Positions 1,678-63,319 of a stretch of DNA of 64,000 bases are shown here, in pieces (position 1 is the first letter of the stretch; each line of letters starts with the position of its first letter). The position numbers were made by a program, and so were the translations under genes. The DNA is taken from contig NZ_CP015519.1 of the NCBI RefSeq assembly GCF_001887775.1, positions 1,984,001 to 2,048,000 of the forward strand, given 5' to 3'. Source of the DNA: Syntrophotalea acetylenivorans. Its GTDB lineage: Bacteria; Desulfobacterota; Desulfuromonadia; Desulfuromonadales; Syntrophotaleaceae. A model generated the notes under the pieces. That model was given only the letters and a program-made list of their open reading frames with translations, did not search any database and was not told where the DNA came from.

Positions 1678-1703
1678 CGTTATTCGGTATGCCCGATGCC
1701 GTC

Positions 1704-1756
1704 AAACCATAAACCATAAACCATAAACCATGAACCATGAACCATGAACCATGAAC
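1704..1756. repeat. Heptanucleotide tandem repeat
   Basis: Seven consecutive 7-base units are seen just after the UbiD gene: four copies of AAACCAT then three of GAACCAT, with a partial eighth. The switch from A to G at the first base of the unit happens once, which is the pattern left by slippage expansion of two variant units. No coding function is evident. Confidence 0.9.
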
Positions 1757-2004
1757 GGCGGGTCGCGGCCCGCCAACCGCCATACTTTTTGTCCAAGCCA
1801 ACAAAAAGTATGCAAAAAATGGCTGCCACTGCGTGGGGCATGCTGTCACGAATGTTCGGAGAAGGCTAACAAACCTTGAGACATCTCACCGAGTCTTCAA
1901 TTTCTTTGGCCGGCCCCTCTTCCGAAAGCTGGTTACTAAAACGATCGATCTGTTTCTCTTACCAATAGTGGTCGAAGGGGCTGTTGGGTTTTAAAACCAA
2001 CAAC
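1755..2004 (+). repeat. Dispersed repeat family A, copy 1
   Basis: This ~250-base segment shares ordered blocks with copies at 11090-11345 (inverted) and 38640-38912. Blocks in order: a GC hairpin (GGCGGG/CCCGCC), a hairpin with arms CATACTTTTTG/CAAAAAGTATG (1781-1812), CCACTGCGTGGGGCATGC, a GGCCGGCCCCTCTTCCGAAAG block, CTAAAACGATCG, and a terminal GTGGTCGAAGGGGCTGTTGG module ending in a TTTTAAAA palindrome. No intact reading frame spans it (an in-frame stop interrupts the frame that is open in the other copies). Confidence 0.85.
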
Positions 2005-2137
2005 GCATATGCAATGTCATCAGGCCTCCTTCTGCTGTTCCCGCCTGTGCGCTGGCCAATCACAGGGGAGGTAACCAGGAAGCGAGTTCCCTTTTTAGGT
2101 TTCTACGCAGGGGAATCGACACTGCAACTTTCGCGGA

Positions 2138-2174
2138 GTGGTCGAAGGGGCTGCTGGGCTTTAAAGTCAACAAC
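2138..2174 (+). repeat. Solo terminal module of repeat family A
   Basis: The last module of repeat family A (GTGGTCGAAGGGGCTGCTGG followed by an AT palindrome and CAACAAC) recurs here alone, 170 bases after the first copy. The rest of the spacer (2005-2137 and 2175-2284) shows no gene or clear signal. Confidence 0.75.
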
Positions 2175-2284
2175 AACTGAAACCACGGCAATAAAATCGC
2201 CGTTGCCTTCTCCCTCCCCCTTGGGTAAGATGTCGCGGTTATCATAAATCAACATGGCTTTCGCCGTGCCTCGAGGATAGAACC

Positions 2285-3214
2285 ATGAAAATCATCGACA
2301 ACAAACACAGCCTGTGGTCCGCTATCGGCAATACGCCGCTGGTGGAACTGAGCCAGATGCACGACAACCCCAAGGTTCGGATTCTTGCTAAGCTGGAAGG
2401 CAACAATCCAGGCGGCAGCGTTAAGGATCGGCCTGCCAGCTTTATGCTGCAAAAAGCTGAGGAATCGGGAGCTTTGCGACCGGGTAAAATCATTCTCGAG
2501 CCGACCTCCGGAAATACCGGTATCGCTCTGGCCATGATCGGTGCCGCCAAGGGTTACCGGGTAAAATTGGTCATGCCCGGCTGCGTCAGCAGCGAACGGC
2601 GGGCGGTGCTTGAGGCCTACGGTGCAGAAGTGATTTTGTCGCCAGCGGCCGAAGCGACAGATGGGGCCATCCGCATGGCGCACCGGGTTCTTGCCGAAGA
2701 ACCGGACAAGTATTACATGCCAAACCAGTACGCCAACGAGAACAACCCCCTTTCCCACTATTACACCACCGGTCCGGAAATTTACGCCCAGACCGAGGGC
2801 AAGATCGACATGTTCGTCGCCGGCATGGGCACCTCCGGCACCCTGATGGGCATGACCCGCTACCTCAAGGAAAAGGATGCGCGCATTCAAGTGATCGGCG
2901 TCGAACCAATTCTGGGTCACAAGGTGCAGGGCCTGAAAAACATGAAAGAAGCCATTGTCCCTGCCATCTATAAAGAATCGCAACTTGACGGCAAAATCGT
3001 CATCGACGACGAAACGGCCTTTGAAACAGCCCGTCAACTGGCCGTCAAAGAAGGCGTTTTTGCCGGCATGTCGAGCGGTGCGGCGGTAGCCGGGGCTCTG
3101 CACATGGCAAAGCAACTGGATCAAGGGACTATTGTCACCCTGCTGCCTGACCGGGGCGACCGCTACCTGAGCACCACCCTGTTCCGCTCCACCTGCGCCT
3201 GCTGCCCGCCCTGA
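2285..3214 (+). CDS. cysM: Cysteine synthase B (O-acetylserine sulfhydrylase)
   Basis: A 309-residue PLP enzyme of fold type II that makes L-cysteine from O-acetylserine and sulfide or thiosulfate, in the cytoplasm. The PLP lysine lies in NNPGGSVKDRPA (about residue 48), the substrate loop is PTSGNTGIA, and the phosphate-binding loop is GMGTSGTLMG. Length and the CysM-like NPGGSVKDRPA pattern suit CysM rather than CysK, although the split is not certain from sequence alone. The start at 2285 follows a GAGGATAG Shine-Dalgarno. The C-terminus carries an unusual CACC cluster. The gene stands alone, with a hairpin repeat and a palindrome downstream. Confidence 0.9.
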   Translation: MKIIDNKHSLWSAIGNTPLVELSQMHDNPKVRILAKLEGNNPGGSVKDRPASFMLQKAEESGALRPGKIILEPTSGNTGIALAMIGAAKGYRVKLVMPGCVSSERRAVLEAYGAEVILSPAAEATDGAIRMAHRVLAEEPDKYYMPNQYANENNPLSHYYTTGPEIYAQTEGKIDMFVAGMGTSGTLMGMTRYLKEKDARIQVIGVEPILGHKVQGLKNMKEAIVPAIYKESQLDGKIVIDDETAFETARQLAVKEGVFAGMSSGAAVAGALHMAKQLDQGTIVTLLPDRGDRYLSTTLFRSTCACCPP

Positions 3215-3271
3215 TTCAGGCTTTAGAGCAGCAACTGTCTTTCAGCAATATTTCTTTAAGCCCAAAGCTTT

Positions 3272-3353
3272 CACCACGAAGGACACGAAGAGCACGAAGG
3301 TAACCACAAGACCGGCTTGCCTTTTCTTCGTGTGCTTCGTGATCTTCGTGGTA
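3272..3353. repeat. Long hairpin with repeated arms (family C, copy 1)
   Basis: The left arm has three near-repeats of CACGAAG (CACCACGAAGGACACGAAG and so on) and the right arm has the complementary CTTCGTG units, giving a long imperfect hairpin after cysM. Four other gaps have the same architecture with different unit sequences. It could also act as a terminator. Confidence 0.75.
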
Positions 3354-3416
3354 AATATCTGCCCCTCCCCCTAACTCTTCGAATCAACACTGCCCCCACC
3401 AACCAACATTGACGGT

Positions 3417-3536
3417 CATGCAAAAATTTCGACCTCCAAGGCTTGGTGTTTTTTCAGGGACGAAGGCATATCTCTAGTATGTCAAGGCCCAGAAAAAACT
3501 CCCTAACGCCGCAAGGCGGACTTTTTGCGACGCCAA
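3417..3536. repeat. Palindromic repeat family B, copy 1
   Basis: A ~120-base imperfect palindrome whose two ~55-base arms meet at a GGCATAT/GTATGTC centre. It shares its order of blocks (AAAAATTT, CAAGGC, TTTTTCAGGG, GAAGGCATA, GTATGTC, GAAAAAA, GCGGACTTTTTGCGACGCCA) with 6593-6720 and 28944-29071. Confidence 0.85.
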
Positions 3537-3569
3537 CAGCATTATTTTCCGCAACAACCAACAACCCGA

Positions 3570-3598
3570 TTGACAAACATCTCGACTAGTTAGATAAT
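3570..3598 (+). promoter_or_regulatory. Sigma-70 promoter of marR-family gene
   Basis: A -35 box TTGACA (3570-3575), a 17-base spacer and a -10 box GATAAT (3593-3598) lie 37 bases before the marR start. Both spacing and sequence are near consensus. Confidence 0.8.
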
Positions 3599-3613
3599 TC
3601 GTTCACCTAACTA
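3587..3613. promoter_or_regulatory. Candidate MarR autoregulatory operator
   Basis: TAGTTAG (3587-3593) and CTAACTA (3607-3613) form a perfect 7-base inverted repeat, 20 bases centre to centre, that overlaps the -10 box. This position and spacing are typical of MarR-family operators that repress their own promoter. Binding by the adjacent regulator is inferred. Confidence 0.65.
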
Positions 3614-3634
3614 ACTAATAAGGTGGCATCCGCT

Positions 3635-4054
3635 ATGACCAAAAAAAAGAGAATGAGTGACATCATCGAAACCGTCGGTCAAGCACTGGTCAACGCCAAG
3701 GTAGAAAAATTGCGCAAAATCGGCGCTCCCGAAATCAACCTGACCCAGTTTCAGTACATCAGCGTCATCAACCAGAACGGTGACCTGAGCTTTACCGGCC
3801 TGGCCCAGGTCCTGAATCTGAGCAAACCGGCGGTCACCTCGATTATCAACAAGTTGATCGAGCAGGGCTACGTCTACAAACGCCAATCGGAAAAAGACCG
3901 GCGAGTTTACCACATTCATCTGACCGAAGAAGGCAAGCAGGTGGCCGACGCTTATGAAGAGTCGCGGCGGGAATACGTCGAGGGCATTCACGGACGCCTG
4001 ACCGATAGCGAATTCAATCGGTTGCTTGAATTGATGGAAAAGGCTCTGCACTGA
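3635..4054 (+). CDS. MarR family transcriptional regulator
   Basis: A 139-residue winged-helix DNA-binding protein. The helix-turn-helix and wing are visible as LAQVLNLSKPAVTSIINKLI followed by GYVYKRQSEKDRRVYHIHLT, the standard MarR pattern. I chose the ATG at 3635 because AAGGTGG (3620-3626) is spaced correctly for it; the GTG at 3623 would sit on the Shine-Dalgarno. A strong promoter with an overlapping inverted repeat precedes it. The gene is followed, 62 bases later, by a TolC fusion, an adaptor lipoprotein and an RND permease, so it most likely represses this efflux operon and itself. The ligand is unknown. Confidence 0.85.
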   Translation: MTKKKRMSDIIETVGQALVNAKVEKLRKIGAPEINLTQFQYISVINQNGDLSFTGLAQVLNLSKPAVTSIINKLIEQGYVYKRQSEKDRRVYHIHLTEEGKQVADAYEESRREYVEGIHGRLTDSEFNRLLELMEKALH

Positions 4055-4116
4055 TACTTTTTTGATTTTATTAGCTTGGCAGACTGCCAAAGCCCCCCCT
4101 GAAAGGATAGCTCGCC

Positions 4117-6558
4117 ATGGCCAGTCCACCGAAGTTCAAAACGGCAGTGCCAATTTTCTTCAGCCGCCCTGGACGCTCTTTCTTTCTGGCAGCTTGCCTT
4201 CTGGTTCTGCTGCTCGTCGCTCTTCCGGCGGCCGCCGCCCCTCTGCGCATCGGCGTCGTCCTGGATGGCCCCTGGGCCGGAAACGCCCCGCTGCTGGATC
4301 TGTTCAAGTCAGAGGTTATTGCCCTGACCAGCGGCGAATTCCCGGTCAACTTTCCTGACGACAAAACAATCACCGCCGACTGGACCATGAGCGGGGTTAA
4401 AAGAGTGGCCGACAAGCTGTTAAAGGATCCGGAAGTCGACCTGCTATTAGCCATCGGCGTTCTGACATCTCATGATCTGGCCCATCGCGGGCCGCTTCCC
4501 AAACCGACGGTGGCACCCTTCACTGTTGACCGCGCCATCCAAGGCTATCCGTTGCAGCAATCGGCCAGCGGAGTCCGCAATTTTTGTTATCTGGCCCCAC
4601 CCTCACCGATACTTCGGGACATGCAGGTATTTGGCGAGCTTCTGCCCTTTCAGCGCCTGGCGGTCTTGACTAATCGCCCTTACCTCGATGCCATCCCCGC
4701 CCTCACCGATGAACTCGCTGCCAACCTGGCCGGAAAAGGCATCGCAATGACCTCTGTCGCCGTCGATTATTCAGCGCAGGCTGCCCTTGCGGCGCTGCCG
4801 AAAGATATCGATGCGGTTTACGTCACCCCCCTGTTGCGCCTGCCACAGACTGAACTTCAGATATTGATAGATGGACTCAAGGCCCGGGGATTGCCGAGCT
4901 TTTCCTATTTCGGCCATAGCGAAGTGCAGCAGGGCATCTTGGCCGGCGCCGCGCCGAAGTCGGATTTTCCGCGCCTGGCCCGGCGCACCGCCCTGACCAT
5001 CCAAAGCATCCTGCTGGGCAAAGACCCGGGCAAGCTGCCGGTCTTTTTTTCCCAGGAAGACCGTCTGAGCATCAACATGCGCACCGCCCGAGCCATCGGA
5101 TTTTCCCCGACCTGGGAGCAGCTTATTGAGGCGGAACTGATCGCTGAAGAAACCAATGGTCCGACCCGGATATTGACCTTGGCGGAAACCGTCAATGAGG
5201 CCATGAAACTTAATCTCGACCTGGCGGCAGCCGATCGTCGCATCGCCGCCGGCGAAGCCGAGGTCCGCAAGGCTCGGGCCGCACTGCTGCCTCAGTTGGC
5301 GGTTGTCGCTAACGGTCTGCTCCTCGATGAAGATCGAGCGGAAGCCAGCTTCGGCAGACAGGCCGAACGGTCGGTAACCGGGACGCTGGTATTGGAACAA
5401 TCCCTCTATTCGGAAGCACGGCGGACCAATTACCATGTGCAGGGACAACAGCAGGAGGCCAGGCTGCAGGAACGCCGGCAACTGCGCCTCGATATCGTCC
5501 AGGCTGCCGCCACCGGCTATCTCAACGTGCTGCGCGCCAAGACTCTGCAAACGATCCAGTCCAATAATCTGCAAGTGACCCGGTCAAATCTGACCTTGGC
5601 CCGTCGTCGCCAGACGGTGGGATTTAGCGGGCCCGCCGAAGTCTACCGTTGGGAGAGCCAGCTGGCACGGGACCGCAAAGCAGTCGTACAGGCAGCAACC
5701 CAGCGCTCCCTGGCTGAAATCGCCCTCAACCGCCTGCTGCAACGCCCTGCGGAAGAGGCCTTCACCACGGCGGAAATCGATCTTGGAGCCCCCGAGTTTC
5801 TGGTTTCCAATCAACGCCTCGCACCATACCTGTCCACACCGGCTGCCTTTACCCGCTATCGTGACTTCATGGTCGAGGAAGGGTTGACCGAAATCCCGGA
5901 GTTGAAGCGTATCGACCGGGCTATCGATGCTCAAGAACGTATCCGTCTGGCAGCTCGGCGGTCATTCTGGACCCCGGAAGTCTCCCTTCGAGCCGACCTC
6001 AGCGAACAACTCTACGAGGGGGGTGCAGGGGTTGACTCACCTTTCTCCGACATCCTTCTGCCCATCGAGATACCCCAGGCTAACGACACCGACTGGAGTG
6101 TCGGTCTCAATCTGACATTGCCGCTATTCACCAGCGGAGCCCGTACTGGGGAGTTGCAGCAGGCCAATGAAGAACTGGCACGGCTTTATCTCGAACGTCA
6201 GGCATTCTCAGACCGTTTTGAGCAGCGAATCCGCTCGGCATTACAGCGCGCACGGGCCTCTCACACGATTATCGGCTTATCGAGTCAAGGGGCGACAGCC
6301 GCCCGCAAAAACCTCGATTTAGTGACGGATGCCTATTCCCGAGGCCTGGTATCGGTTATCGAATTGATCGATGCCCAAAATGCCGCGCTGGTCGCCGATA
6401 GCCTGGCGGCCAGCGCAGTCTATGACTTTTTTATCGATCTGATGGAAGTACAGCGCGCCGTCGGTCGCTTCGATTTTTTCCTCGGCCCTCAACAGAGGGA
6501 AGACTGGTTTGGTCGCCTGGAAGAATTTTGGCGACGAAATGACACTGCAGCCCCTTGA
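4117..6558 (+). CDS. ABC-type substrate-binding domain fused to TolC family outer membrane factor
   Basis: An 813-residue exported protein, about twice the usual TolC length. A signal sequence or membrane segment spans about residues 22-42. Residues ~43-330 look like a type I periplasmic binding fold of the ABC_sub_bind type (LRIGVVLDGPWAGN at its start, alternating beta-alpha segments such as YVTPLLRLPQTELQILIDG). Residues ~345-800 are a TolC/OMF repeat pair (ILTLAETVNEAMKLNLDLAA, then GLVSVIELIDAQNAAL and NLTLPLFTSGARTGE). As the outer membrane duct it should work with the downstream adaptor and RND pump to export toxic compounds; the extra domain may sense or capture substrate in the periplasm, which is inference. 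Start 4117 follows GAAAGGATAG. Confidence 0.85.
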   Translation: MASPPKFKTAVPIFFSRPGRSFFLAACLLVLLLVALPAAAAPLRIGVVLDGPWAGNAPLLDLFKSEVIALTSGEFPVNFPDDKTITADWTMSGVKRVADKLLKDPEVDLLLAIGVLTSHDLAHRGPLPKPTVAPFTVDRAIQGYPLQQSASGVRNFCYLAPPSPILRDMQVFGELLPFQRLAVLTNRPYLDAIPALTDELAANLAGKGIAMTSVAVDYSAQAALAALPKDIDAVYVTPLLRLPQTELQILIDGLKARGLPSFSYFGHSEVQQGILAGAAPKSDFPRLARRTALTIQSILLGKDPGKLPVFFSQEDRLSINMRTARAIGFSPTWEQLIEAELIAEETNGPTRILTLAETVNEAMKLNLDLAAADRRIAAGEAEVRKARAALLPQLAVVANGLLLDEDRAEASFGRQAERSVTGTLVLEQSLYSEARRTNYHVQGQQQEARLQERRQLRLDIVQAAATGYLNVLRAKTLQTIQSNNLQVTRSNLTLARRRQTVGFSGPAEVYRWESQLARDRKAVVQAATQRSLAEIALNRLLQRPAEEAFTTAEIDLGAPEFLVSNQRLAPYLSTPAAFTRYRDFMVEEGLTEIPELKRIDRAIDAQERIRLAARRSFWTPEVSLRADLSEQLYEGGAGVDSPFSDILLPIEIPQANDTDWSVGLNLTLPLFTSGARTGELQQANEELARLYLERQAFSDRFEQRIRSALQRARASHTIIGLSSQGATAARKNLDLVTDAYSRGLVSVIELIDAQNAALVADSLAASAVYDFFIDLMEVQRAVGRFDFFLGPQQREDWFGRLEEFWRRNDTAAP

Positions 6559-6592
6559 ACCAACAAAAAATGTTTAGCAAGTACTTATAGGA

Positions 6593-6720
6593 ATGGCTAA
6601 GTAAAAATTTTTCCCTACAAGGCGTAGTGGTTTTTCAGGGGTGAAGGCATACATAGAGTATGTCAAAGTCCTGAAAAAACGCTGCAACGCAGTAGGGGGA
6701 GATTTTTTCGACGCCATCAA
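6593..6720. repeat. Palindromic repeat family B, copy 2
   Basis: The same ~120-base imperfect palindrome as at 3417-3536, here lying inside the efflux operon between the TolC fusion and the adaptor gene. Its right end abuts the AAGGAG ribosome site of the adaptor. An open frame that runs through it into the adaptor (from 6641) is a by-product of the repeat, as the lipoprotein signal starts only at 6734. Confidence 0.85.
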
Positions 6721-6733
6721 GGAGACATACCTC

Positions 6734-7834
6734 ATGATAAGCCGCAACCTGCTGGCGTTACTGCTGCCCCTGTGTCTGCTCGCCTGCGGAAGTGAACCCG
6801 CCCAGCAGCCGGAGCTAATCCGGCCGATCCGTTATCAGAAAGTCAAACCGGGAAGCAGCCTGCTGAAACGGACCTTTTCCGGCATGGCCCAGGCGGGCGT
6901 GGAATCACGGCTCAGTTTTCGGGTCTCCGGTGCCGTAGAAGAAGTGGCGGTCCAGGTTGGAGATAAGGTCAAAAAAGGTCAACTGATCGCCCGCCTCGAT
7001 GCCACCGACTATCGGCTTCAGGTACAGGAGGCGCAGGCGGCCCTGGCCAATGCGCGAGCCCAGGCCCGCAACGCCGAAGCGAATTACGAGCGGGTGAGGG
7101 GGCTGTACGAAAACCGCAACGCTTCCCGCAACGATCTGGATGCTGCCCGGGCCGCCAACGAATCGGCCGAGGCGCAGGTTCGGGCCAGCAAGACACGCCT
7201 GGAACTGGCCCGTTCCCAACAGGCCTATACCCGACTTACCGCCCCCAGCGCCGGCGCCATCGCCAGCGTTCCCATCGAGATCAACGAAAACATCGCCGCT
7301 GGCCAGATGGTGGCGCTGCTGACCTCCGGTGCCCTAACCGAGGTCGGTTGCACCGTACCGGAGAGCCTTATCACCCAGATCAAACAGAAGATGTCCGTCG
7401 AAGTTTTCTTTGACGCTTTGCCCGAACGGAAGTTTTCGGCCACGGTGACCGAAGTCGGCGTCGCGGCCACCGGCCAGGGGACCACCTTTCCAGTCACCGT
7501 ACGACTTGAGAAAAGCTCGGGGATGATCCGTCCCGGCATGGCAGCGACCATTATTTTCCTCTTGCCTAAAGCCGGCAACAACAACCCGGTTCTCGTAGTT
7601 CCAGAAGCTATCGGTGAAGATCGCAAGGGGCGCTTCGCCTTTGTGGTCGAATCCGGCAAGGACGGGTTGGGGATCATTCATCGGCGGGCCGTTACGGTGG
7701 GCGAACTGACCTCGGAGGGTCTGGAAGTTCTCAGCGGACTGCAAGACTCTGATCTGGTCGTTACCGCCGGTATCAGTCGCATTCACGAAGGACAACAGGT
7801 TCAAATTCTCGCCGGCAACGAGGTACAGCCATGA
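6734..7834 (+). CDS. RND efflux periplasmic adaptor lipoprotein
   Basis: A 366-residue membrane fusion protein of the HlyD/AcrA type. The start at 6734 is chosen because AAGGAG lies 9 bases before it and because a lipoprotein signal (LLALLLPLCLLACGS) then begins immediately, with the lipid-bearing cysteine near residue 17. A biotinyl-lipoyl-like half motif (VQVGDKVKKGQLIARLDATD), a coiled-coil hairpin (about 75-150) and beta-barrel regions follow. It should bridge the inner membrane RND permease encoded next, whose start overlaps its stop by 4 bases (ATGA), to the TolC-like duct encoded upstream. Confidence 0.9.
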   Translation: MISRNLLALLLPLCLLACGSEPAQQPELIRPIRYQKVKPGSSLLKRTFSGMAQAGVESRLSFRVSGAVEEVAVQVGDKVKKGQLIARLDATDYRLQVQEAQAALANARAQARNAEANYERVRGLYENRNASRNDLDAARAANESAEAQVRASKTRLELARSQQAYTRLTAPSAGAIASVPIEINENIAAGQMVALLTSGALTEVGCTVPESLITQIKQKMSVEVFFDALPERKFSATVTEVGVAATGQGTTFPVTVRLEKSSGMIRPGMAATIIFLLPKAGNNNPVLVVPEAIGEDRKGRFAFVVESGKDGLGIIHRRAVTVGELTSEGLEVLSGLQDSDLVVTAGISRIHEGQQVQILAGNEVQP

Positions 7835-10800
7835 ATCTGACCCGCTCCGCTCTGGAAAAAAACCGGGTAACTCTGGTCGCCCTGCTGGTTGTCGCCCTGG
7901 CCGGTCTGTTCTATTTTTCCACCCTGCCCCGTGCCGAAGATCCCGGTTTCGTGGTGCGAGTGGCCCAGGTGCTGACGTATTTCCCCGGAGCCAGCCCCGA
8001 GCGGGTTGAGCAACTGGTTACCGACAAGCTGGAAAAGGTCATACAGGAAATCCCCCAGATCGACTACATCGAAAGCGAATCGAAACCGGGCGTTTCGGTC
8101 ATCTGGGTCAACATCCTTGAGCGTCACAAAGAGATGCGCCCTATCTGGGACGACCTGCGACGCAAGGTTACCCGGGCTACCGGCGAACTTCCCGACGAAG
8201 TGGTCGGCCCCTTTGTCAACGATGAGTTCGGCGACATCTTCGGTATTATCGTCGCCATCAGTGGGGAAGATTTCAGCTATGCCGAACTCAAGGAAATGGC
8301 TGACGATTGCCGCAATGATCTATTGCTGAATCCACACATCGCCAAGGTCGACATTCAGGGTATTCAGCAGGAACGGATTTTTGTCGAATATCAAAACGCC
8401 CGACTGGCGGAACTTGGACTATCCCCCTTTCAGCTCAAAGGCATTCTTGAAGCCCGCAACATCATTATTCCCGGTGGCGAAATCTTTACCGACCGGGAAC
8501 AGATCGTCCTTGAGCCGACCGGCAACTTTGATTCGGTGGCCGACCTCAAGCGTACGGTCATCACCTTGCCCGGCCGGGATGGAGTCGTCTACCTGGAAGA
8601 CATTGTCGACATTCGGCGCGACTATATCGACCCGCCGACCAGCCGAGTCCACTACAAAGGTAAACCGGCCTTAACCCTGGCCCTTAACCTGCGCGAAGGT
8701 GGCGACATGCTGGCCCTTGGCGATGACGTCAAACGGGCTCTGGAACGCTTCCGCCAGGCATATCCCGTGGGCGTCGATTTCGACATCGTGGCCTTTCAGC
8801 CCGAGCACGTGAAACGCAAAGTCGACGAGTTTGTCACCAACCTGCTGCAGGCCATGGTCATCGTGCTGGTGGTGATGCTTATTTTTCTTGGGTTGCGCAC
8901 CGGCCTGGCGGTATCCAGCCTGATTCCCATGGCAATGATCATGGCTTTACTGGTGATGGGCCTGCTCGGCATCGGCATCGACCAGATGTCCCTGGCAGCC
9001 ATGATCATCGCCCTGGGCATGCTGGTCGACAACGCCATCGTCATGTCCGAATCGGTCATGGTTTTGATGGGCGAGGGCAAATCGGCCGTCGAAGCGGCCA
9101 TCGAGTCGGCTCAGGAGTTGAAAATTCCCCTGCTGACCTCCTCCCTGACCACGGCCGCGGCGTTTCTACCCATCTATCTGGCCAAATCATCGACGGGAGA
9201 ATACACTGCCCCGCTGTTTAAGGTGGTCACCATCACCCTGCTCTCGTCCTGGCTCCTGTCGCTGACCATGACCCCGCTCTTTTGCGTCTATTTCATTCGG
9301 GTCAAGAAGAACACCGAACAGGGCAGCTACAACAATACCTTTTATCGCCGCTATCGCGGTTTCTTACTTTTCATACTACGCAACCGGTTGCTTACCCTGG
9401 TCACTGTACTCCTGATTTTTATGGTGGCCATGGCCAGCTTCCGTTTTGTGCCGAAGATGTTCTTTCCGCCCCACAACAAACCGATCTTCAGCGCCGAACT
9501 GCGCCTGCCCGTCGGCACCCCGTTGAAACGCATGGAAGCGGTGGTACAGCAAATCGAAGACTTCATGCAGGCAGAAATGATGGCCGATCCGAAACAGGAC
9601 AAGGAAGGCCTGGTCAGTTGGGTCAGTTACATCGGCTCCGGTGCTCCCCGCTATATGCTGCCCTACTCCCCCGAGGCACCAAGCCCCGAATACACCTATA
9701 TGCTCATCAACGGCAGCAGCCGCGATCACAACCTGGCCGAGATGATTCCGCGCCTGGAACGCTACTGCCTGAACAATTTTCCCGATCTGACACCCAAGAT
9801 TCGCCCGCTGATTCTCGGCCCACCCATCGAAAATCCCGTGGAAGTGCGACTTTCGGGCAAGGATACCGACCGCCTTTTCGATCTGGCACAACAGACCAAG
9901 GAGCAATTGGCCAATATTCCCGGCAGCCGCAATATCACTGACAACTGGGGCGCCCGGACTAAAAAGCTGGTAGTACAGATCAATCAGCCACGGGCGTTGC
10001 GGGCCGGTCTTACCAGTCGGGACATCGCCGTATCGCTGCAGACGATTCTGAGCGGGATTCAAACCACCGAATATCGCGAAGAGGACGAGTTGATTCCCGT
10101 CACTCTGCGCTCAGTAGCAGCAGATCGCAAAGACATCGGCAAACTGGAAAGCCATAACATCTACGTGCAGCAGACCGGCCAATCGGTGCCTTTGAAACAG
10201 GTAGCCGACATCAATATCGCCTGGCAGCCGGGAAAAATCATCCGCCGCGACCGGGTTCGGACCATTACCGTGCAATCCAACATCGACAGCGGCGCCAATG
10301 CCATCGCCATCGGTCAGCAAATCGATGGCTGGCTCAAAGAGCAAAGCCGCAATTGGCCCTTTGGCGACAAATACCAACTCGGAGGCGAGATCGAAACCTC
10401 CGGGAAAGCCAATAAATCGATCGCTGTCAATCTGCCCTTGACCACATTACTGATCTTGTTGCTGCTGGTTGGACAGTTCAACTCGCTGCGCCGACCGCTG
10501 ATCATTCTACTGACCATCCCCCTGGGCATGATTGGAGTAACCTTCGGCCTCCTGGTAACCGGCTCCTACTTTGGCTTTATGACCCTGCTGGGCATCATTG
10601 CTCTGTGCGGTATCGTCATCAACAACGCCATTGTCCTGATCGATCGCATCAATATTGAAATCGACGAGCACGGCCAAGACCCGGCCACAGCAATTCTTGA
10701 ATCGGCCCAGCGCCGCCTGCGGCCGATTCTGCTCACCACAGCCACCACCATGGGCGGCCTTTTGCCCCTGTGGCTGAGCGGCGGGCCCATGTGGGAGCCG

Positions 10801-10935
10801 ATGGCTATCTCCATCATCTTTGGTCTGCTGTTTGCCACCATTCTGACCCTTGGCCTGGTACCGGTACTCTACAGCCTCTTATTCCGGGTCAACTTTCGTA
10901 ACTTTACCTATCGGTCGCCCGACGGCCGGATCTGA
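7831..10935 (+). CDS. RND family efflux permease (AcrB/MexF-like)
   Basis: A 1034-residue inner membrane pump with the RND layout: an N-terminal membrane helix (about 13-30), a large periplasmic loop, helices 2-6 (about 335-470), a second loop, and helices 8-12 (about 850-1015). The helix-4 motif ALGMLVDNAIVMSESVM keeps the first proton-relay aspartate, but the second position is Asn, as in several RND subfamilies. It drives drug or solvent export with proton influx, together with the adaptor and TolC fusion. Translation is coupled to the adaptor gene through an ATGA overlap. The substrate cannot be told from sequence. Confidence 0.92.
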   Translation: MNLTRSALEKNRVTLVALLVVALAGLFYFSTLPRAEDPGFVVRVAQVLTYFPGASPERVEQLVTDKLEKVIQEIPQIDYIESESKPGVSVIWVNILERHKEMRPIWDDLRRKVTRATGELPDEVVGPFVNDEFGDIFGIIVAISGEDFSYAELKEMADDCRNDLLLNPHIAKVDIQGIQQERIFVEYQNARLAELGLSPFQLKGILEARNIIIPGGEIFTDREQIVLEPTGNFDSVADLKRTVITLPGRDGVVYLEDIVDIRRDYIDPPTSRVHYKGKPALTLALNLREGGDMLALGDDVKRALERFRQAYPVGVDFDIVAFQPEHVKRKVDEFVTNLLQAMVIVLVVMLIFLGLRTGLAVSSLIPMAMIMALLVMGLLGIGIDQMSLAAMIIALGMLVDNAIVMSESVMVLMGEGKSAVEAAIESAQELKIPLLTSSLTTAAAFLPIYLAKSSTGEYTAPLFKVVTITLLSSWLLSLTMTPLFCVYFIRVKKNTEQGSYNNTFYRRYRGFLLFILRNRLLTLVTVLLIFMVAMASFRFVPKMFFPPHNKPIFSAELRLPVGTPLKRMEAVVQQIEDFMQAEMMADPKQDKEGLVSWVSYIGSGAPRYMLPYSPEAPSPEYTYMLINGSSRDHNLAEMIPRLERYCLNNFPDLTPKIRPLILGPPIENPVEVRLSGKDTDRLFDLAQQTKEQLANIPGSRNITDNWGARTKKLVVQINQPRALRAGLTSRDIAVSLQTILSGIQTTEYREEDELIPVTLRSVAADRKDIGKLESHNIYVQQTGQSVPLKQVADINIAWQPGKIIRRDRVRTITVQSNIDSGANAIAIGQQIDGWLKEQSRNWPFGDKYQLGGEIETSGKANKSIAVNLPLTTLLILLLLVGQFNSLRRPLIILLTIPLGMIGVTFGLLVTGSYFGFMTLLGIIALCGIVINNAIVLIDRINIEIDEHGQDPATAILESAQRRLRPILLTTATTMGGLLPLWLSGGPMWEPMAISIIFGLLFATILTLGLVPVLYSLLFRVNFRNFTYRSPDGRI

Positions 10936-10982
10936 TTTGGTGCGATTCCCTTTTAGGTATCCATAAAAGAGATTTCCGAAAC

Positions 10983-11015
10983 GACAGGGCCCCGGCAACA
11001 GCCGGGGCCCTGTTC
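10983..11015 (+). terminator. GC-rich hairpin after RND operon
   Basis: A perfect stem CAGGGCCCCGGC/GCCGGGGCCCTG with a short loop ends the efflux operon. The 3' side lacks a proper T-run (TTCTCAT), so termination may be weak or assisted. Confidence 0.65.
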
Positions 11016-11089
11016 TCATAAGGAGCAATCTCATTCAGAAGGTTAGTCTCCCTTTCAGCGGGAACCACAGAGGACAACATATCGGCATT

Positions 11090-11345
11090 TCATATACGGT
11101 GTTGGTTTTAAACCCAGCAGCCCCTTCGACCACTGTTGGCAAGAAAAGCAGACCGAGCGTTTTAGCAATAACCTTTGAAGGAAGGGCCGCCCAAAGAAAT
11201 TGCTGCTACCGTAAATGGCAGCAGGGCTATTAGCCTTCTCCTTACCTACGCGAACGCATGCTCCACGCAGTGGCAGCCACTTTTTGCCTACTTTTTGTTG
11301 GCTTGGACAAAAAGTAGGGCGGCTGGCGGGCCGCCACCCGCCGGT
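11090..11345 (-). repeat. Dispersed repeat family A, copy 2 (inverted)
   Basis: Reverse-complement copy of the element at 1755-2004. It contains CAGCAGCCCCTTCGACCAC, GGGCCGCCCAAAG, GCATGCTCCACGCAGTGG, the CTACTTTTTG/CAAAAAGTAG hairpin (11290-11320) and the CCCGCC/GGCGGG hairpin. It ends 4 bases from the stop codon of atpG, so it forms the 3' end of the ATPase operon. A 112-codon frame crosses it on the minus strand but overlaps atpG and is judged spurious. Confidence 0.85.
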
Positions 11346-11349
11346 TCTG

Positions 11350-12240
11350 TCAGCCAGGTCCCTGATCATCAACCAAAGCCTCAAAACCGGCAATCACATC
11401 AAACAACTCTTCCGTCACGCTGTTCTGGCGCAGAGCGTGATAATCCGCGCGAAAGTCCGCACGCATCTCTTCAATGTTTTTCTCGGCCCGTTGCATAGCC
11501 GCCAACCGCGCCGCGTTCTCCGCCGCCAGGGACCCGGCAAAGGCTCCAAACAACGAGACAAAAAGATACTCGGCGATCAAAGCGGCAAACAGGGGCTGCC
11601 AGGGTGGAGAGTAGAGAGGAAGACAACGACCCGGCCACCGTTGGCCGCTCATGGTGGCGAGCCACTGATCATCGGGGGGCAGCAAATCAACCTGCAGCCG
11701 TTCATAATGAGTCGCCCTGGCTGGCGCATTATGAAACAGCAGCAAACGGGTTTCGCCGTGCTGGCTGCGCCTGGCTTCAAAACGTAGCAGCACCTCCTGC
11801 ACAGCCCCGGTGATGGCCTGGGCCGAGGTGGGAAGACGAAAGACTTCCTCCGCCTCTTCTAGACGCTGAGCAAGCCCTGCGGCCACCTTTTCACCCACCG
11901 CCCAAACCGTGCAGCGATCATCCTCCCGACGCCTCTGGCGATAAACCGTTTCGACCCCGTCGAGTACCAACTCATTGAAACGGCCGACCATCCCCTGATC
12001 CGAACCAAAAACCAGCAACACCGTCTGACGGGGAATTTTAATCGACCCAACCAACGGTCGATCACGCAAAACGGCTTGCAAACCCATTTCCACGGTCCGG
12101 TAATAATCGTCCAGAGAACGTAGCGACCGTTCATATTGATGAATATTAACCGCTGCCATGGTCTTCATGGTACGCACCACGGTATAAAGATCGTCGGCGC
12201 TGCGAATGCGCCGATGCAGCTCAAGCAGGGCCTGACTCAT
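11350..12240 (-). CDS. atpG: N-type ATP synthase gamma subunit
   Basis: A 296-residue central-shaft subunit. The N-terminal helix (about 3-50, with [18 protein letters not shown]) and C-terminal helix (about 230-290) would form the coiled coil that turns inside the alpha-beta head; the Rossmann-like middle includes [17 protein letters not shown]. It is the last gene of the N-ATPase operon and starts within the stop of atpA (ATGA overlap, 4 bases). A dispersed repeat follows directly. Function depends on an intact beta subunit, which is frameshifted in this sequence. Confidence 0.9.
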
Positions 12241-13748
12241 AGTATTTCCTTCAGGGAATCAGCGGCAATCTTCTGCAAGGCTCGCAGATCATCTTCTTCG
12301 AGTTTTTCGCCCCCCTCGATTCGGGCCGAAATCTCCGGCAGCAGCGCCAACGCCTCGCAAACCTGGTTTTCGGCCCGGGCCATGTCCGATTCGGCAATTT
12401 CATCGAATAGACCACAATTGACCGCATGCAAAACCATCACCTGCTCAACGGCGGTTCGCGACGCACACTGGCCCTGTTTAAGCACGGCCCGTACCCGCCG
12501 ACCGCGGTTCAACAGCTGGCGGGTCGCATCATCAAGCCGGGTCCCGAAGCGGGAAAAAGCTTCCAACTCCGTAAACTGGGCGTAGGCCAGACGCAAATCA
12601 CCGACCACCGCGCGATAAGCGGGCAGTTGAGCTTTGCCGCCAACCCGTGAGACCGAGCGGGTAATATCGACGGCCGGCAGCTGCCCCTTCTGAAAAAGTC
12701 CGGGGGACAGATAGATCTGACCGTCGGTGATGGAAATCAGGTTGGTGGGGATATAGGCGGCAAGGTTCTGTGCTTCGGTTTCGATGATCGGTAAGGCCGT
12801 CAGGGAACCGCCTCCACCCTGCTCCTTGAGGCGGGTGGCCCGTTCCAGCAATCGAGAATGGATATAGAAGATGTCACCGGGGAAGGCTTCCCGGCCAGGG
12901 GGCCGGCGCAAAAGCAGGGACAGCTCGCGATAGGCCCGGGCATGACGGGTCAAGTCATCGTAGACCACCAGAACATCCCGCCCCTGCTCCATAAAATATT
13001 CGGCAATGGTCGTCGCGGCATAGGGGGCAATATATTGCTGCCCCGGAGGGTCGTCCCCCTCGGCAACCACCACCACGGTATAATCCATTGCCCCCTTTTC
13101 CCGCAACTGCGCTACCACGGAAGCGACACTGGACGCCCGCTGGCCGATAGCGCAATAAACGCACAACACCCCTTTGTCGTGCTGATTAATGATAGTATCG
13201 ACAGCCACGGCCGTCTTGCCGGTCTGGCGATCACCGAGAATTAGCTCGCGCTGACCGCGACCGATGGGAACCAGGGCATCGATCACCTTGATGCCGGTAA
13301 ACAACGGTTCGGACACCGGCAGCCGCTCCATGATCGCCGGCGCCGATCGTTCCAACGGTCTCCGCTCATGATAGGGGAGAGGGCCAGCTCCGTCCCGGGC
13401 CTGCCCGAGAGGATCGACTACCCGGCCGAGGAGCCCCTCACCCACCGCCACATCGAGCACCCGGTCGGTTCGGACCACCTCGTCACCAGCATGCAAGGCA
13501 TCGTAATCACCGAGCATTGCCACCCCGATCCCCCGGCTGTCGATATCAAAAGCCAGCCCCAACACGCCACCGGGAAAAGCCAGCAGCTCTTCGCTGCGAA
13601 CCGTATCGAGACCTTGAACCCTGGCAATACCACGGCCGACATAGACTATTTTCCCTACCTGCTGCAATAACAACTGCGGCCCCATAGTGGCCATGGTCTG
13701 GCGGAGAACTTGGAGAGTTTCATCCAGCAGAATGCTGTAACTGCTCAT
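12237..13748 (-). CDS. atpA: N-type ATP synthase alpha subunit
   Basis: A 503-residue alpha subunit with the Walker A loop [15 protein letters not shown], the Walker B region [12 protein letters not shown] and the [20 protein letters not shown] segment. It forms the catalytic hexamer with beta. The start is taken as the ATG at 13748, which shares bases with the stop of atpF (TGATG) and follows GGGAGGAG; a TTG three bases upstream is possible. The alpha of N-ATPases is encoded late in the operon, after atpF, as seen here. Confidence 0.93.
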
Positions 13749-14530
13749 CAACTCCTCCCGGTATCCCCTGCAGCAGCCTCTATCTCTTCGAATTGCCTGT
13801 CGACCTGCTGCTCCAGTTCATTAAAGTAACTGTCCACTCCCCAGGATAATTTCAAGCCGCCAAAGATCAGTTCGATGCCGAGGGGCATCTCTTCTTCGGT
13901 ACGATAGCTGATAATCAACTCCTGGCCGAGGACCCTGCGCAGTTCGTTTTCGAGATTGCGACGGATATCTTCGCCCAGAGCTACCGCGCTTCGCACAAGA
14001 ATTCCGGATTTTTCCGCAGCCACACGACAGTTCGCCTGCTGGGTCTCGCCCAAGGCCGAGAAACGGGCGATAAAACGCTCTGCCAACAGGGTAGTCAGAT
14101 CGCAACCGGTTAGATCGTCGAGGGATTTACGGGCAATTTGCAATACCTCGCTACCAATGCGTTTTTTCAGTTCAGCCATGAACATCTGCCGGTCCCGACA
14201 GACGGAAGCCTTCCAGGCCTTCGCCAGTTCGGAGGCTTCAGTACGCCCTTGATCAATGAGTTGCTGACGGTGCAAAGCAGCTTCTTCCGCAGCCTGGCGC
14301 AGACCTTCAGCCCGTCCTTCTTCGAGCTCCCGATTGAGGCGCTGATATTCGGCGGCCTCTTTTCTGGCTGTTTCCTGCTCTTGATGGGCCTCCTGCAACC
14401 GGCTTTCGATTCGGGCTTCACGATGATCCATTGCCTGGATGATCGGCCCGTAAAGGAACCGTTTCAACAACCAGATCAGCAGCAGGAAGTTGACCGCTTG
14501 GGCTGCGACGGTGAACCAGTCGATGAGCAT
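13748..14530 (-). CDS. atpF: N-type ATP synthase b subunit, with delta-like extension
   Basis: A 260-residue protein, far longer than a usual b subunit (~160). One membrane helix lies at about residues 5-25, then a long charged helix (about 30-130), and then ~120 residues with [20 protein letters not shown] and [18 protein letters not shown] that resemble the delta/OSCP C-terminal region. N-type operons lack a separate atpH, and this extension is the known replacement. It forms the stator. Start 14530 lies just after the atpE stop (14534). Confidence 0.9.
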
Positions 14531-43234: not shown

Positions 43235-44254
43235 CTAGAGCTTTCGGTCGGCGGCCGCAGCGAACTGACGCAGTTTTTCCATGACAATCGCAAAATCTGA
43301 CGGCCGCAGGGATTGGGGGCCATCGCAAGAGGCCGTTTCGGGACTATTATGCACCTCGACCAGCAAACCGTCACAACCGGCCGCCACCGCTGCATAGCAC
43401 ATGGAAGGCACCAAACTGGCGTGCCCGGTGGAGTGGGACGGATCGATCACCACCGGCAGGTGAGTCTGCTCTTTGAGTACCGGTACGGCGGAAATATCGA
43501 GAGTGTTGCGAGTGGCCGTTTCAAAAGTACGAATCCCCCGCTCGCAGAGGATGACCCGGCGGTTTCCTTCGGACAGAATATATTCGGCACTCATCAGAAA
43601 CTCCTTGATGGTGGTCGCCATGCCCCGCTTGAGCAATACCGGTTTGTCCTGCTGGCCTAACAGCTTGAGCAGAGGGAAGTTCTGCACGTTACGCGCTCCA
43701 ACCTGCAGAATATCGGCATAACGGGCTACCAGCTCCACATCCCGCGGATTGACCACCTCGGTAACGATGGGCAGGCCTGTTTCCTGGCGGGCCAGGTCGA
43801 GGAGCCGAAGACCCTCTTCTTCCAGCCCCTGAAAGGCATAAGGGCTGGTACGGGGCTTAAAGGCTCCGCCCCGGAGTACGGTAGCGCCTGCGGCCTTGAC
43901 CGCCCGGGCGGTCTCGATCAACTGCTCTTCCCCTTCGACGGAACAGGGGCCCGCCATCACCACCAGTTGCTCGCCACCGATGGTCAATCCGGGTGCCAAC
44001 TCGATAATACTCGGCTCGGGACAGACTTCGCGGCTGGCCAATTTATAAGGCTGCAGAATCGGCATCACATTTTCGACACCGTCCATCGACTCCAGGGATT
44101 GCAGCACCGCTTTGCCGCGCTCATCCCCTACGGCACCGATAACATTGCAGGTTGCACCGTGAATGACGTGGGGCTTGTAGCCAAGATCGCGAATGCGCTG
44201 CTTGACTGCCAGCAACTGCTCCCGGCTGGCCCCGTGCTTCATGACGATAATCAT
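43235..44254 (-). CDS. aroF: 3-deoxy-7-phosphoheptulonate (DAHP) synthase, AroF_ACT type
   Basis: A 339-residue enzyme that condenses phosphoenolpyruvate and erythrose 4-phosphate in the first step of aromatic amino acid synthesis. A ferredoxin/ACT-like domain (about 1-75) precedes a type I-beta catalytic barrel with [48 protein letters not shown] and [11 protein letters not shown]. The start at 44254 follows AGGAGG. The leader at 44349-44519 carries an aromatic-codon leader peptide and an attenuator, so control by phenylalanine or tyrosine supply is likely; the N-terminal domain usually also allows feedback inhibition. Confidence 0.95.
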
Positions 44255-44348
44255 CTTTGTATCCTCCTGGTGAGCGCCGTCAAGTCGGAACGACTTCGAG
44301 ACGCGAGCTGTGGCTTTCCGTTCAACTCGACCACGCCCTTTTCGCCTG

Positions 44349-44397
44349 AAAAACAAAAAGAAAACCACGGGGCCGGAGTTCGGTCTGCCCGTGGTTT
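44349..44397 (-). terminator. Attenuator terminator of the DAHP synthase gene
   Basis: On the minus strand AAACCACGGGCAGACC pairs with CCCCGTGGTTTT, followed by TTCTTTTTGTTTTT. Its 5' arm includes GGGCAGAC (plus 44383-44390), which can instead pair with GTCTGCCC transcribed from 44450-44457, giving a mutually exclusive antiterminator. Confidence 0.85.
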
Positions 44398-44426
44398 GTG
44401 TTAATCGGTTGATTGACGACTGTCAG

Positions 44427-44519
44427 TTACGTCAACGGACCTTCACCCTGGGCAGACGGCCTAAAAAAGAAGCCGCACCAAAAGTAAAACCCGTTAAAAA
44501 AGTCGTAACGAAACTGCAT
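44427..44519 (-). CDS. Aromatic leader peptide of the DAHP synthase attenuator
   Basis: A 30-codon frame with ATG at 44519 and TAA at 44427. The peptide begins MQFRYDFFNGFYFWCGFFFR: 8 Phe, 2 Tyr and 1 Trp in the first 19 residues. GGAG lies 7 bases before the ATG. Its codons end just before the antiterminator segment, so ribosome stalling at Phe/Tyr codons would free that segment and allow transcription of the downstream gene. Confidence 0.85.
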   Translation of the reverse strand: MQFRYDFFNGFYFWCGFFFRPSAQGEGPLT

Positions 44520-44550
44520 GCCGATACTCCGAAAATAAACTCTTTCTGAT

Positions 44551-44579
44551 CTTCTATCAGAATCATCACCAAATAGCAA
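44551..44579 (-). promoter_or_regulatory. Candidate promoter of the DAHP synthase leader
   Basis: On the minus strand TTGCTA, a 17-base spacer and TAGAAG stand about 30 bases before the leader peptide start. Both boxes match four of six consensus bases. Confidence 0.5.
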
Positions 44580-44639: not shown

Positions 44640-46067
44640 CTAACTGGAATAGAGACTCTGGGTAAAGCTATCCAGCCAGTGGTGTACGTCATGGCGCCGA
44701 ATCTCGTTGCGCAGCAACTTCATCCGCCGCAGACGCTCTCCGGATTCCATGACATAGGCCTGATATATGGCATCGGCCGTACTTTCGATATCATAGGGGT
44801 TCACCAGCAAAGCTCCCTTGCGTAGCTGATCCGCCGCTCCGGCGAATTCGCTGAGAATCAGAACGCCGTTGTTCTCCACCGAACTGGCGCAATATTCCTT
44901 GGCAACCAGATTCATACCGTCTCGCAGAGGGGTGATAAGGGCTATCTCCGAGGTCCGATAACGGGCCAGCAATTGAGTGCGGCCAAGGGTGCGATAAACA
45001 TAGTATATAGGATTCCATTCGGGCTGTCCGAAGCGGGCGTTAATGCGACCGGCCAGCTGATCGAGGGTTTCCTTGAGATTCTGATAATCGGGCACCAGGG
45101 TTCGGCTCGGCACCACCAACTGCATCAGGCTGATATTGGTAATTAGCTCGGGGTACTTCTCCAGCGCCCGCTCAAAAGCCAGGAATCGCTCGGGAATCCC
45201 CTTGGTATAATCGAGGCGGTCGACCCCCAGCATCAATTGCCGACCACGCAGATTTTCATGCAGGTACCAGGCGGCATCTTCGACTTCTTTGGACCGGGCA
45301 CCATTATCGAATTCATCGAAATCGATACTGATGGGAAAATGCCCGACCCGCACCGTGCGTCCTTCGAACTGCAACACATCGTAGTGCCTCTTGCGACTGA
45401 CCACTTCGACCTCGCTCAGCAAAGAGGTTGCGGTATTAACAAAATTGCGGCGGTCACGCTGGGTCTGAAAACCGAGCAGGTCATAAGCCAGCAGCGAGCG
45501 GATCAATTGATCCTTCCAGGGCAAGCGACGAAAGAGATCCGGAGCCGGAAAAGGGATGTGCAGGAAATATCCCAGGGGCTGAGGCATCTTCAGGGCCCGC
45601 AACTGATCTCCCACCCCGATCAATTGATAATCGTGAACCCAGATCAGGTCATCTGCTTTAGCATGTTCGGTCACGACCTGCGCGAAGCGCCGGTTGACAT
45701 CGAGATAAACCTGCCAGTTGTCGTAGGAAAATCGGCAGAATCCGAGCAGATCGTGAAACAGCGGCCACAAAGCCTCGTTGGAAAACCCCCGGTAATACCT
45801 CTCCACCTCATCGGCTGAAAGAGGCACCGCCGCCAGAGAATAACCGTTGTCTTGGGCGAAGCGGTCCAACAATTGCCCCAGCGGAGCCTCTTCATCACAA
45901 CCAGGCCAACCGATCCATAAACCTTTCTGCTGCCGCATAACCGGGGCCAGAGCAGTCACCAAGCCACCACTGCCGGGAATAATTTGCCATTTATCTGCCT
46001 GCCTCTCAATGACCACCGGCAAGCGATTCGATACAACCAGCAAACGTCTTTGTTGCTCTTGGAGCAT
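44640..46067 (-). CDS. otsA: Alpha,alpha-trehalose-phosphate synthase (UDP-forming)
   Basis: A 475-residue GT20 enzyme that makes trehalose 6-phosphate from UDP-glucose and glucose 6-phosphate. Motifs: [14 protein letters not shown] at the N-terminus, [40 protein letters not shown] and [12 protein letters not shown]. Start 46067 follows AGGAGATAACCAT. No trehalose-phosphatase gene is next to it; instead the operon has a TreT-like transferase. Trehalose probably serves as a compatible solute. Confidence 0.93.
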
Positions 46068-48228: not shown

Positions 48229-48304
<76 letters not shown>

Positions 48305-63138: not shown

Positions 63139-63167
63139 CCATATACCTTGGAATACGCGTTCGCAGG

Positions 63168-63268
63168 TCGACTCCTTTCCAAATACGGGAGGCGCCACCG
63201 TTTCCGGGGGCACCCATCGTTCAAGGTGGCTTAGCTATGGCCTTAGCCGGCCTTGAATCGGAGTGGAC
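63168..63268 (-). promoter_or_regulatory. Molybdenum cofactor (Moco/Tuco) riboswitch
   Basis: On the minus strand a closing stem ACTCC/GGAGT encloses a TTCAAGG/CCTTGAA stem with an inner GGCT/AGCC arm, a GGTGCC/GGCGCC stem capped by CCGGAAACGG (a GAAA tetraloop), then GCGCCTCCCGTAT and GGAAAGGAGT. This order and the conserved GAAA loop, GCCTCCCG and GGAAAGGAG strings match my memory of the Moco RNA motif. Telling Moco from tungsten cofactor needs a covariance model. Confidence 0.75.
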
Positions 63269-63319
63269 TTTATGTTAACGGGCTAAAAAACCCTCTTTCA
63301 TTAAACTTCAAGCTCTCGT

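Follow-up and report, generated by a model that had tools for sequence, protein, structure and literature searches.

Organization of the aroF leader

The window, by which we mean the whole 64,000-nt stretch of Syntrophotalea acetylenivorans DNA that was analyzed, carries aroF on the minus strand, preceded on the same strand by an attenuator at 44579-44349 (Table 1). An earlier note on this DNA had taken the aroF product for an AroF_ACT-type enzyme. This assignment was not borne out: an ACT domain was ruled out for the window's AroF, and the N-terminal domain is DAHP_snth_FXD (PF18152), which is ferredoxin-like. A divergent tRNA-Phe gene lies ~3.6 kb from the leader promoter, with otsA and two further long ORFs between it and the leader. 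Elsewhere in the window, a molybdenum/tungsten cofactor riboswitch was seen at 63156-63275 on the minus strand (69.2 bits).

Table 1. Features of the aroF locus in window coordinates
Feature	Position	Strand	Detail or basis
Leader promoter	44551-44579	-	-35 TTGCTA 44579-44574, 17-nt spacer ending TGA, -10 TAGAAG 44556-44551
Leader peptide ribosome-binding site	44527-44530	-	GGAG
Leader peptide ORF	44427-44519	-	30 codons, MQFRYDFFNGFYFWCGFFFRPSAQGEGPLT*
Predicted sensing codons 12-17	44469-44486	-	Tyr Phe Trp Cys Gly Phe; ribosome-stall folding model
Arm 1 of 1:2 hairpin	44470-44490	-	within leader ORF; place computed from alignment A1
Arm 2	44440-44462	-	antiterminator strand: core GUCUGCCC, 44457-44450
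Arm 3	44383-44397	-	T1 5' arm (AAACCACGGG) plus GGGCAGAC; partner of arm 2
Terminator hairpin T1 (arms 3:4)	44362-44397	-	-18.4 kcal/mol
T1 U-run	44349-44361	-	TCTTTTTGTTTTT; sequence
aroF Shine-Dalgarno (SD)	44263-44268	-	AGGAGG; sequence
aroF	43235-44254	-	type I-beta DAHP synthase, ferredoxin-like N-terminal domain (PF18152 + PF00793)
otsA	44640-46067	-	trehalose-phosphate synthase; upstream of leader
tRNA-Phe (GAA)	48229-48304	+	divergent

The promoter-like boxes, the leader peptide with its GGAG site and 11 aromatic residues in 19 codons, and the terminator with its T-run, all of which had been pointed out before, were each recovered. The aromatic residues of codons 1-19 are eight Phe, two Tyr and one Trp. 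The claimed 8-base antiterminator pairing with the 5' arm of T1 is exact (GUCUGCCC with GGGCAGAC at 44390-44383), was extended to 11 bp through GGU:ACC in an RNA duplex search, and persists in relatives. The minus-strand leader folds with a z of -2.8, and 1 of 200 shuffles was as good; the plus strand read as sense gave a weaker fold (z -1.9; 8 of 200 shuffles as good) and was rejected, with aroF on the minus strand.

A generic sigma-70 scan called no promoter at the leader, and a generic terminator scan, whose loop limit was 8, missed T1. Of 51 promoter zones of relatives, 37 contain a similar motif (TTG and TA separated by 16-18 nt that end in TGn), compared with 1.61 expected from shuffles, with the motif having been picked after the alignment had been viewed. 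We consider it extremely improbable that T1 is merely a constitutive terminator for read-through from otsA and that the leader ORF is there by chance. The gene otsA does lie upstream on the same strand, but the promoter motif stands between it and the leader, the leader, T1 and arm 2 are kept in relatives, and 17 of the 52 representative relatives described below instead have a divergent tRNA-Phe(GAA) in the up to 700 nt ahead of aroF. This was the only kind of tRNA seen in that interval across the 52 representatives, 46 of which had at least 690 nt present.

Conservation of the leader and its alternative helices

AroF relatives were gathered by protein, and 66 distinct aroF leaders were taken and reduced to 52 representatives; L029, in which no leader was seen, and homologues from other phyla stand outside the 66. 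Upstream of aroF in Desulfuromonadales, the leader commonly reads ..F.FWxGFxFRPSARGxGLLA*, with some divergent forms, and an aromatic-rich leader ORF was recognized in 51 of the 52 representatives. In 48 of 51 leaders, Trp lies no more than 12 codons ahead of the core, and the Phe codons of the relatives' leaders are TTT (269) and TTC (97). The T1 hairpin is present in all 66 leaders, five of the hairpins having been set by hand. The best partner of the T1 5' arm lies 39-70 nt upstream; the search always returns some best partner, and by reading this partner falls at the homologous core in 63 of 66 (not in L010, L096 or L113). The alignment of related leaders that the earlier note had proposed as a check has now been run, and the leader, T1 and the pairing are kept before aroF with compensatory changes.

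To judge the antiterminator, arm 2 and arm 3 were compared between matched and permuted species. With an unbiased search made both ways, the 2:3 duplex averaged -23.62 kcal/mol within a species versus -21.01 kcal/mol when permuted (sd 0.31, 0 of 20000; 52 representatives), permutation tests of this kind leaving some shared ancestry in. We cite this figure rather than the -22.70 versus -19.65 obtained when arm 2 was chosen against its own arm 3, because in the latter arm 2 had been picked with its own partner.

Alignment A1 contains 45 of the 52 representatives; L096 and L113 were left out since the automatic arm 2 was not correct, as were L007, L009, L090 and L091, which have a divergent core, and L121. 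In A1, 87.2% of cells are paired for helices 1:2 and 3:4 together (40.5-57.9% when slid), and 17 of 29 pairs changed on both sides, a mild distinction only from the 12-14 seen when slid. Structure alone does not account for the conservation of helix 1:2, which is also coding sequence. For 2:3, 89.3% of cells are paired (24.6-46.7% slid) and 6 of 11 pairs changed on both sides versus 2-7 slid; therefore, double changes alone do not distinguish 2:3 in this alignment. In a broad alignment of 54 phylum-wide sites, 2:3 is paired in 98.1% of cells versus 31.3-47.3% slid, with 5 of 8 pairs double-changed versus 1-4, and 3:4 is paired in 94.1% versus 28.9-58.5%, with 6 of 10 double-changed versus 2-5.

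A second AroF paralogue (51% identical) has no such leader in the window's own genome and two relatives viewed by eye. The Rokubacteria leaders (L058, L059, L062 and L079) have a T1-like hairpin lacking a U-run and a U-run only after a second hairpin. In these four, the leader ATG lies close to the -10 box, and translation may begin from a nearly leaderless RNA.

A second terminator and further helices downstream of T1

A second hairpin, T2 (arms 5:6), lies between T1 and aroF in 35 of the 52 representatives, as judged by a hand-checked list made with an energy cut and the exclusion of species by eye. When energy and U-run were instead scored automatically, T2 was called in 33 of the 66 leaders. 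Of 83 broad sites, 51 have a T2 and 32 have none under the rule used for that set. In the window and its closest relatives, no U-run hairpin follows T1, and the relay seen in his-type leaders is not found there.

The 5' arm of T2 is complementary to the 3' arm of T1. For this helix, 4:5, the matched value was -16.8 versus -14.2 when permuted (sd 0.39, 0 of 20000; 35 species), and the controls 4:6, 3:5, 3:6, 2:5 and 2:6 in this first set were not significant (1302 to 14521 of 20000). Because 4:5 had been noticed by eye in the first set before its test, the set from outside the order serves as the independent test: here the values were -17.8 versus -14.8 (sd 0.38, 0 of 20000; 48 dereplicated sites), with weak signal in the controls 3:6 (62 of 20000) and 4:6 (778 of 20000) and none in 3:5. 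Given this complementarity, a single antitermination event could disable T1 and T2 together. At equilibrium, 4:5 beats 5:6 in only 6 of 35 relatives, so the relay would have to act during transcription, that is, kinetically.

One further helix, 7:8, joins the segment just after T1 with one just before or reaching into the aroF SD. In relatives such as L091, L111, L123 and L126, it often takes in the T1 U-run and the SD. The helix covaries strongly (-17.8 versus -12.15 kcal/mol permuted, sd 0.50, 0 of 20000), which would fit a mainly translational control in which the T1 U-run and segment 7 pair with the aroF SD region and hide it. We regard such control as unlikely to be the main one. The control pairing 7:mid also has some signal (28 of 20000; linker:8 has none, 14949 of 20000), the SD in the window is about half open (0.57 unpaired), and T1 is kept with its U-run. 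When arm 4 is free, the predicted SD accessibility goes from 0.33 to 0.23 in species with T2 and from 0.29 to 0.32 in the others; hiding of the SD as the ON/OFF step was rejected, as the predicted accessibility did not shift in the direction needed.

Predicted position-dependent effect of ribosome stalling

We modeled stalling by folding the RNA downstream of a ribosome that covers 10 nt past the A-site codon, the footprint of E. coli ribosomes. When the modeled ribosome stalls at any of codons 3-10 or 18-31, the window's T1 stays intact; a stall at codon 11 weakens it, and with stalls at codons 12-17 it is mostly lost. (The corresponding count of 2:3 in the window used a core matched 4 nt early, by reading an artefact; the T1 count is independent of the core position.) With footprints from +7 to +14, the sensing window shifts by no more than two codons, and Phe13 and Trp14 are always inside it. 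Phe17 falls within it at footprints +7 to +11, Phe18 only at +7 and +8, and Phe19 never; Phe17-19 as the main sensors is thus a candidate weakened by both the stall model and the footprint series. Only 5 nt separate codon 19 from the start of the antiterminator strand, so that this strand is covered when the ribosome stalls at codons 18-19.

The stall script could treat 37 relatives. A sensing window, defined as T1 below 60% of its maximum, was present in 23, and it contains Phe in 20, Trp in 18 and Tyr in 13. With equilibrium folding, no codon releases T1 in 14 of the 37, and nearly all codons do in L018.

The codon mix had previously been read as pointing to Phe with some Tyr. Phe and Tyr can be kept in this reading, but it left out Trp, which is conserved and, at codon 14, is predicted by the stall model to matter as well. 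The model thus predicts control by Phe, Tyr and Trp, and the aroF switch probably senses scarcity of all three, which fits an enzyme feeding all three pathways. Phe3, Phe7 and Phe8 lie upstream of the sensing window, and modeled stalls at these codons keep T1; consequently, severe Phe starvation could shut aroF down by 'super-attenuation', a term found in PMC1183508.

These results can be joined in a model in which aroF expression would be set by the supply of charged aromatic tRNAs through ribosome-mediated transcription attenuation. When Phe, Tyr and Trp are ample, the ribosome would run through the leader, and arm 2 would be covered or paired to arm 1; with arm 2 unavailable, T1 (3:4) would form and RNA polymerase would stop at 44361-44349. 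A stall with codons 12-17 in the A site would instead cover arm 1 and leave arm 2 free to pair with arm 3, so that T1 would be blocked and aroF transcribed. In many relatives, not including the window's genus, the freed arm 4 would then capture arm 5, also disarming T2.

The observation of an aromatic attenuator before aroF is confirmed, and the reading of the leader as an attenuator is supported by what the DNA contains: a short leader ORF that has a ribosome-binding site and a cluster of control codons matching the pathway product, a predicted intrinsic terminator between this ORF and aroF, and an antiterminator that is exclusive with the terminator and kept in relatives. Its components are present, they are conserved and covary, and folding predicts a dependence on stall position; we think it highly probable that this is a ribosome-mediated attenuator of aroF. 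We infer a response of the leader to starvation, termination at T1 in living cells, and a kinetic mode of action for the relay.

A probable wider family with differing control codons

In the window's own genome, the model R1 found no second place at E<=1e-3; the other listed match (E 0.015) is the same hairpin on the opposite strand. Across the phylum, R1 matches 90 of 297 genomes at E<=0.001 and 79 of 297 at 30 bits or more. It matches 5 of 148 genomes at E<=0.001 in the class of Ruminiclostridium (L071), with a best score of 29.5 bits, and 6 of 95 in the phylum of L028 (a Methylomirabilota MAG), where four matches lie before an aroF-like gene by reading and L289 looks false.

The downstream gene was examined at 90 R1 places, consisting of 30 loci (the window's included) and 60 that were fetched, with 13 weaker places and opposite-strand repeats left out. 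The gene is AroF-like at 50 places; at the others it encodes a LIV-type binding protein of family 1 (12), ADH synthase (7), phenylacetate-CoA ligase (6), a binding protein of family 2 (4), type I-alpha DAHP synthase (2), leuA (1) or an aminotransferase (1). Seven have no assigned gene (L182, L206, L218, L224, L226, L231 and L233), and some of these are probably false. One representative of each non-AroF kind was named by domain or family matching and the rest by likeness; both binding proteins fall below NCBIfam cut-offs, and family 1 matches PF13458.

Control codon identity follows the downstream gene. The residues before the core total F47 Y6 W0 for phenylacetate-CoA ligase, F67 Y8 W0 for binding protein family 1, F3 Y20 W0 for family 2, F29 Y26 W3 for ADH synthase and L11 F0 for leuA. 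At 49 of 72 sites measured, the start of the core is 5-6 nt downstream of the final control codon, the 'gap 1' rows among the 72 being, by reading, a pattern artefact in which the core was matched 4 nt early. All three reading frames are used across the core (35, 30 and 7 of the 72 sites), so the conservation is that of an RNA.

These data bear on the possibility that the aroF leader encodes an arrest peptide like TnaC, with FxFWxGFxFRPSA itself stalling the ribosome on a free aromatic amino acid. The good conservation of the peptide within Desulfuromonadales, Trp included, would suit such a peptide. Across the phylum, however, where a TnaC-like element would conserve the peptide rather than codon identity, the RNA core persists and is read in three frames as the peptide changes, Tyr, Trp or Leu take over as control residues depending on the gene, and arm 2 is formed by the very codons for the conserved RPSA. 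We therefore judge arrest by the peptide itself to be very unlikely. Action in trans, with the attenuator being only part of the function of the terminated leader RNA or its peptide, is decidedly unlikely as well: a short terminated RNA would be released, and peTrpL of Sinorhizobium (PMC7298713) offers a precedent, but most of the sites that we examined stand immediately ahead of a pathway gene.

A core-only model, R2, was run in 14 genomes, and 16 regions were fetched from its matches. Ten have an amino acid leader before a fitting gene (genes at L268, L274 and L277 assigned by likeness), whereas L265, L269, L271 and L280 have none. Leaders with Trp-Trp-Trp precede a TrpB-like enzyme (L272) and trpE (L273 and L274); in L279, which comes from the family of the window and matched weakly (E 0.0074), a Trp-containing leader precedes trpS; and Leu leaders precede leuA (L275-L277) and a 2-oxoacid oxidoreductase (L267 and L268). 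A possible eleventh region, L270 (E 9.8e-4), combines a poorly kept core with an Ile-rich leader ahead of citramalate synthase. In L278, from the window's order, an Ala/Val-rich leader with a similar core precedes an aminotransferase; an alanine attenuator would be unusual. L266 has a doubtful leader before an IOR alpha subunit (below cut-off). Because R1 and R2 favor sequences like the aroF set, including its U-rich leaders, other relatives may have been missed.

Phe-rich leaders built on the aroF-type scaffold precede phenylacetate-CoA ligase at L155, L156, L165, L178, L194 and L205; together with the doubtful leader at L266, they suggest that these bacteria make phenylalanine from phenylacetate. 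Phe-rich leaders also precede family 1 of the LIV-type binding proteins (L172, L175, L176, L184, L186, L188, L189, L190, L196, L199, L201 and L212), and Tyr-rich leaders precede family 2 (L200, L202, L230 and L234); from their leaders, the two families are candidate phenylalanine and tyrosine transporters, respectively. The archaeal-type ADH synthase has the same kind of leader at L162, L185, L187, L213, L225, L227 and L232. In these genomes the leader stands before the ADH synthase gene, and hence the regulation is common to different families of first-step enzyme.

Relation to known systems

At the window leader, Rfam gave nothing above gathering, and a loose search returned two irrelevant matches near E 2-3; on 20 loci, comprising relatives and other genes, Rfam returned tRNAs only. 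In particular, Phe_leader (RF01859; gathering 55 bits) has no match at the window leader. The only RF01859 place listed elsewhere in the genome (35 bits) was rejected, having short ORFs, no aromatic leader and an unrelated terminator.

The enterobacterial pheA-type leaders resemble the aroF leader in having a Phe-rich peptide, an exclusive antiterminator and terminator, and a biosynthetic target. In contrast to them, the window element precedes a DAHP synthase gene and has a sequence-conserved GUCUGCCC core and mixed Phe/Tyr/Trp codons, and many aroF relatives add a relay terminator. The alternating helices 1:2, 2:3, 3:4, 4:5 and 5:6 of the relatives resemble the A-F segments of the Salmonella/E. 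coli his leader. They differ from it in two ways: in many relatives, 3:4 as well as 5:6 looks like a terminator with a U-run, and 5:6 is missing from the window's genus. The E. coli trp leader shares the 1:2 / 2:3 / 3:4 logic and the dependence on stall position, whereas the aroF leader carries its antiterminator strand within the ORF, 5 nt past the last Phe codon. Like T-box riboswitches, the aroF-type family adapts a single scaffold to many amino acids through its codons, but it would sense through the translating ribosome and not through direct tRNA binding. No T-box model of Rfam matches in the window. The clostridial aroF homologues L051, L070 and L075 seem to have T-boxes in the same place.

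We found no report of the aroF element in the open-licence literature; earlier comparative studies of proteobacterial attenuators may mention it. The available portions of PMC2965389, PMC1262725, PMC11109978, PMC2864571, PMC3766115 and PMC1183508 do not report it. The last of these, in its available text, lists trp, his, leu, thr, ilv and pheA as the attenuated operons of E. coli/Salmonella, with DAHP synthase not among them.

Taken alone, the window element is a good but unsurprising attenuator, and its kind, ribosome-mediated attenuation, is known. The interest is in the aroF-type family scaffold, the relay and the codon swaps. Elements of this type are widespread across Desulfobacterota, among bacteria that reduce sulfur and iron, and have no Rfam match where tested. 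We infer common descent for all family members. On balance, we favor the view that they form one ancestral, phylum-wide attenuator family, in which a conserved RNA core (GUCUGCCC / GGGCAGAC), placed ~5-6 nt after the control codons, has been re-specified by codon swaps (Phe, Tyr, Trp, Leu, and perhaps Ile and Ala/Val) in the manner of T-boxes, and in many members of which one stall would disarm two terminators. Such a family would be a general amino acid regulator in Desulfobacterota and relatives, acting on different enzymes of one and the same step (DAHP synthases of types I-beta and I-alpha, and the archaeal-type ADH synthase) as well as on uncharacterized Phe/Tyr transporters. Its leaders predict specificity, namely Phe for one LIV-type family and phenylacetate-CoA ligase and Tyr for the other binding-protein family, and they provide naturally occurring attenuators that differ in their control codons and have either one terminator or two, a set usable for quantitative studies of coupling.
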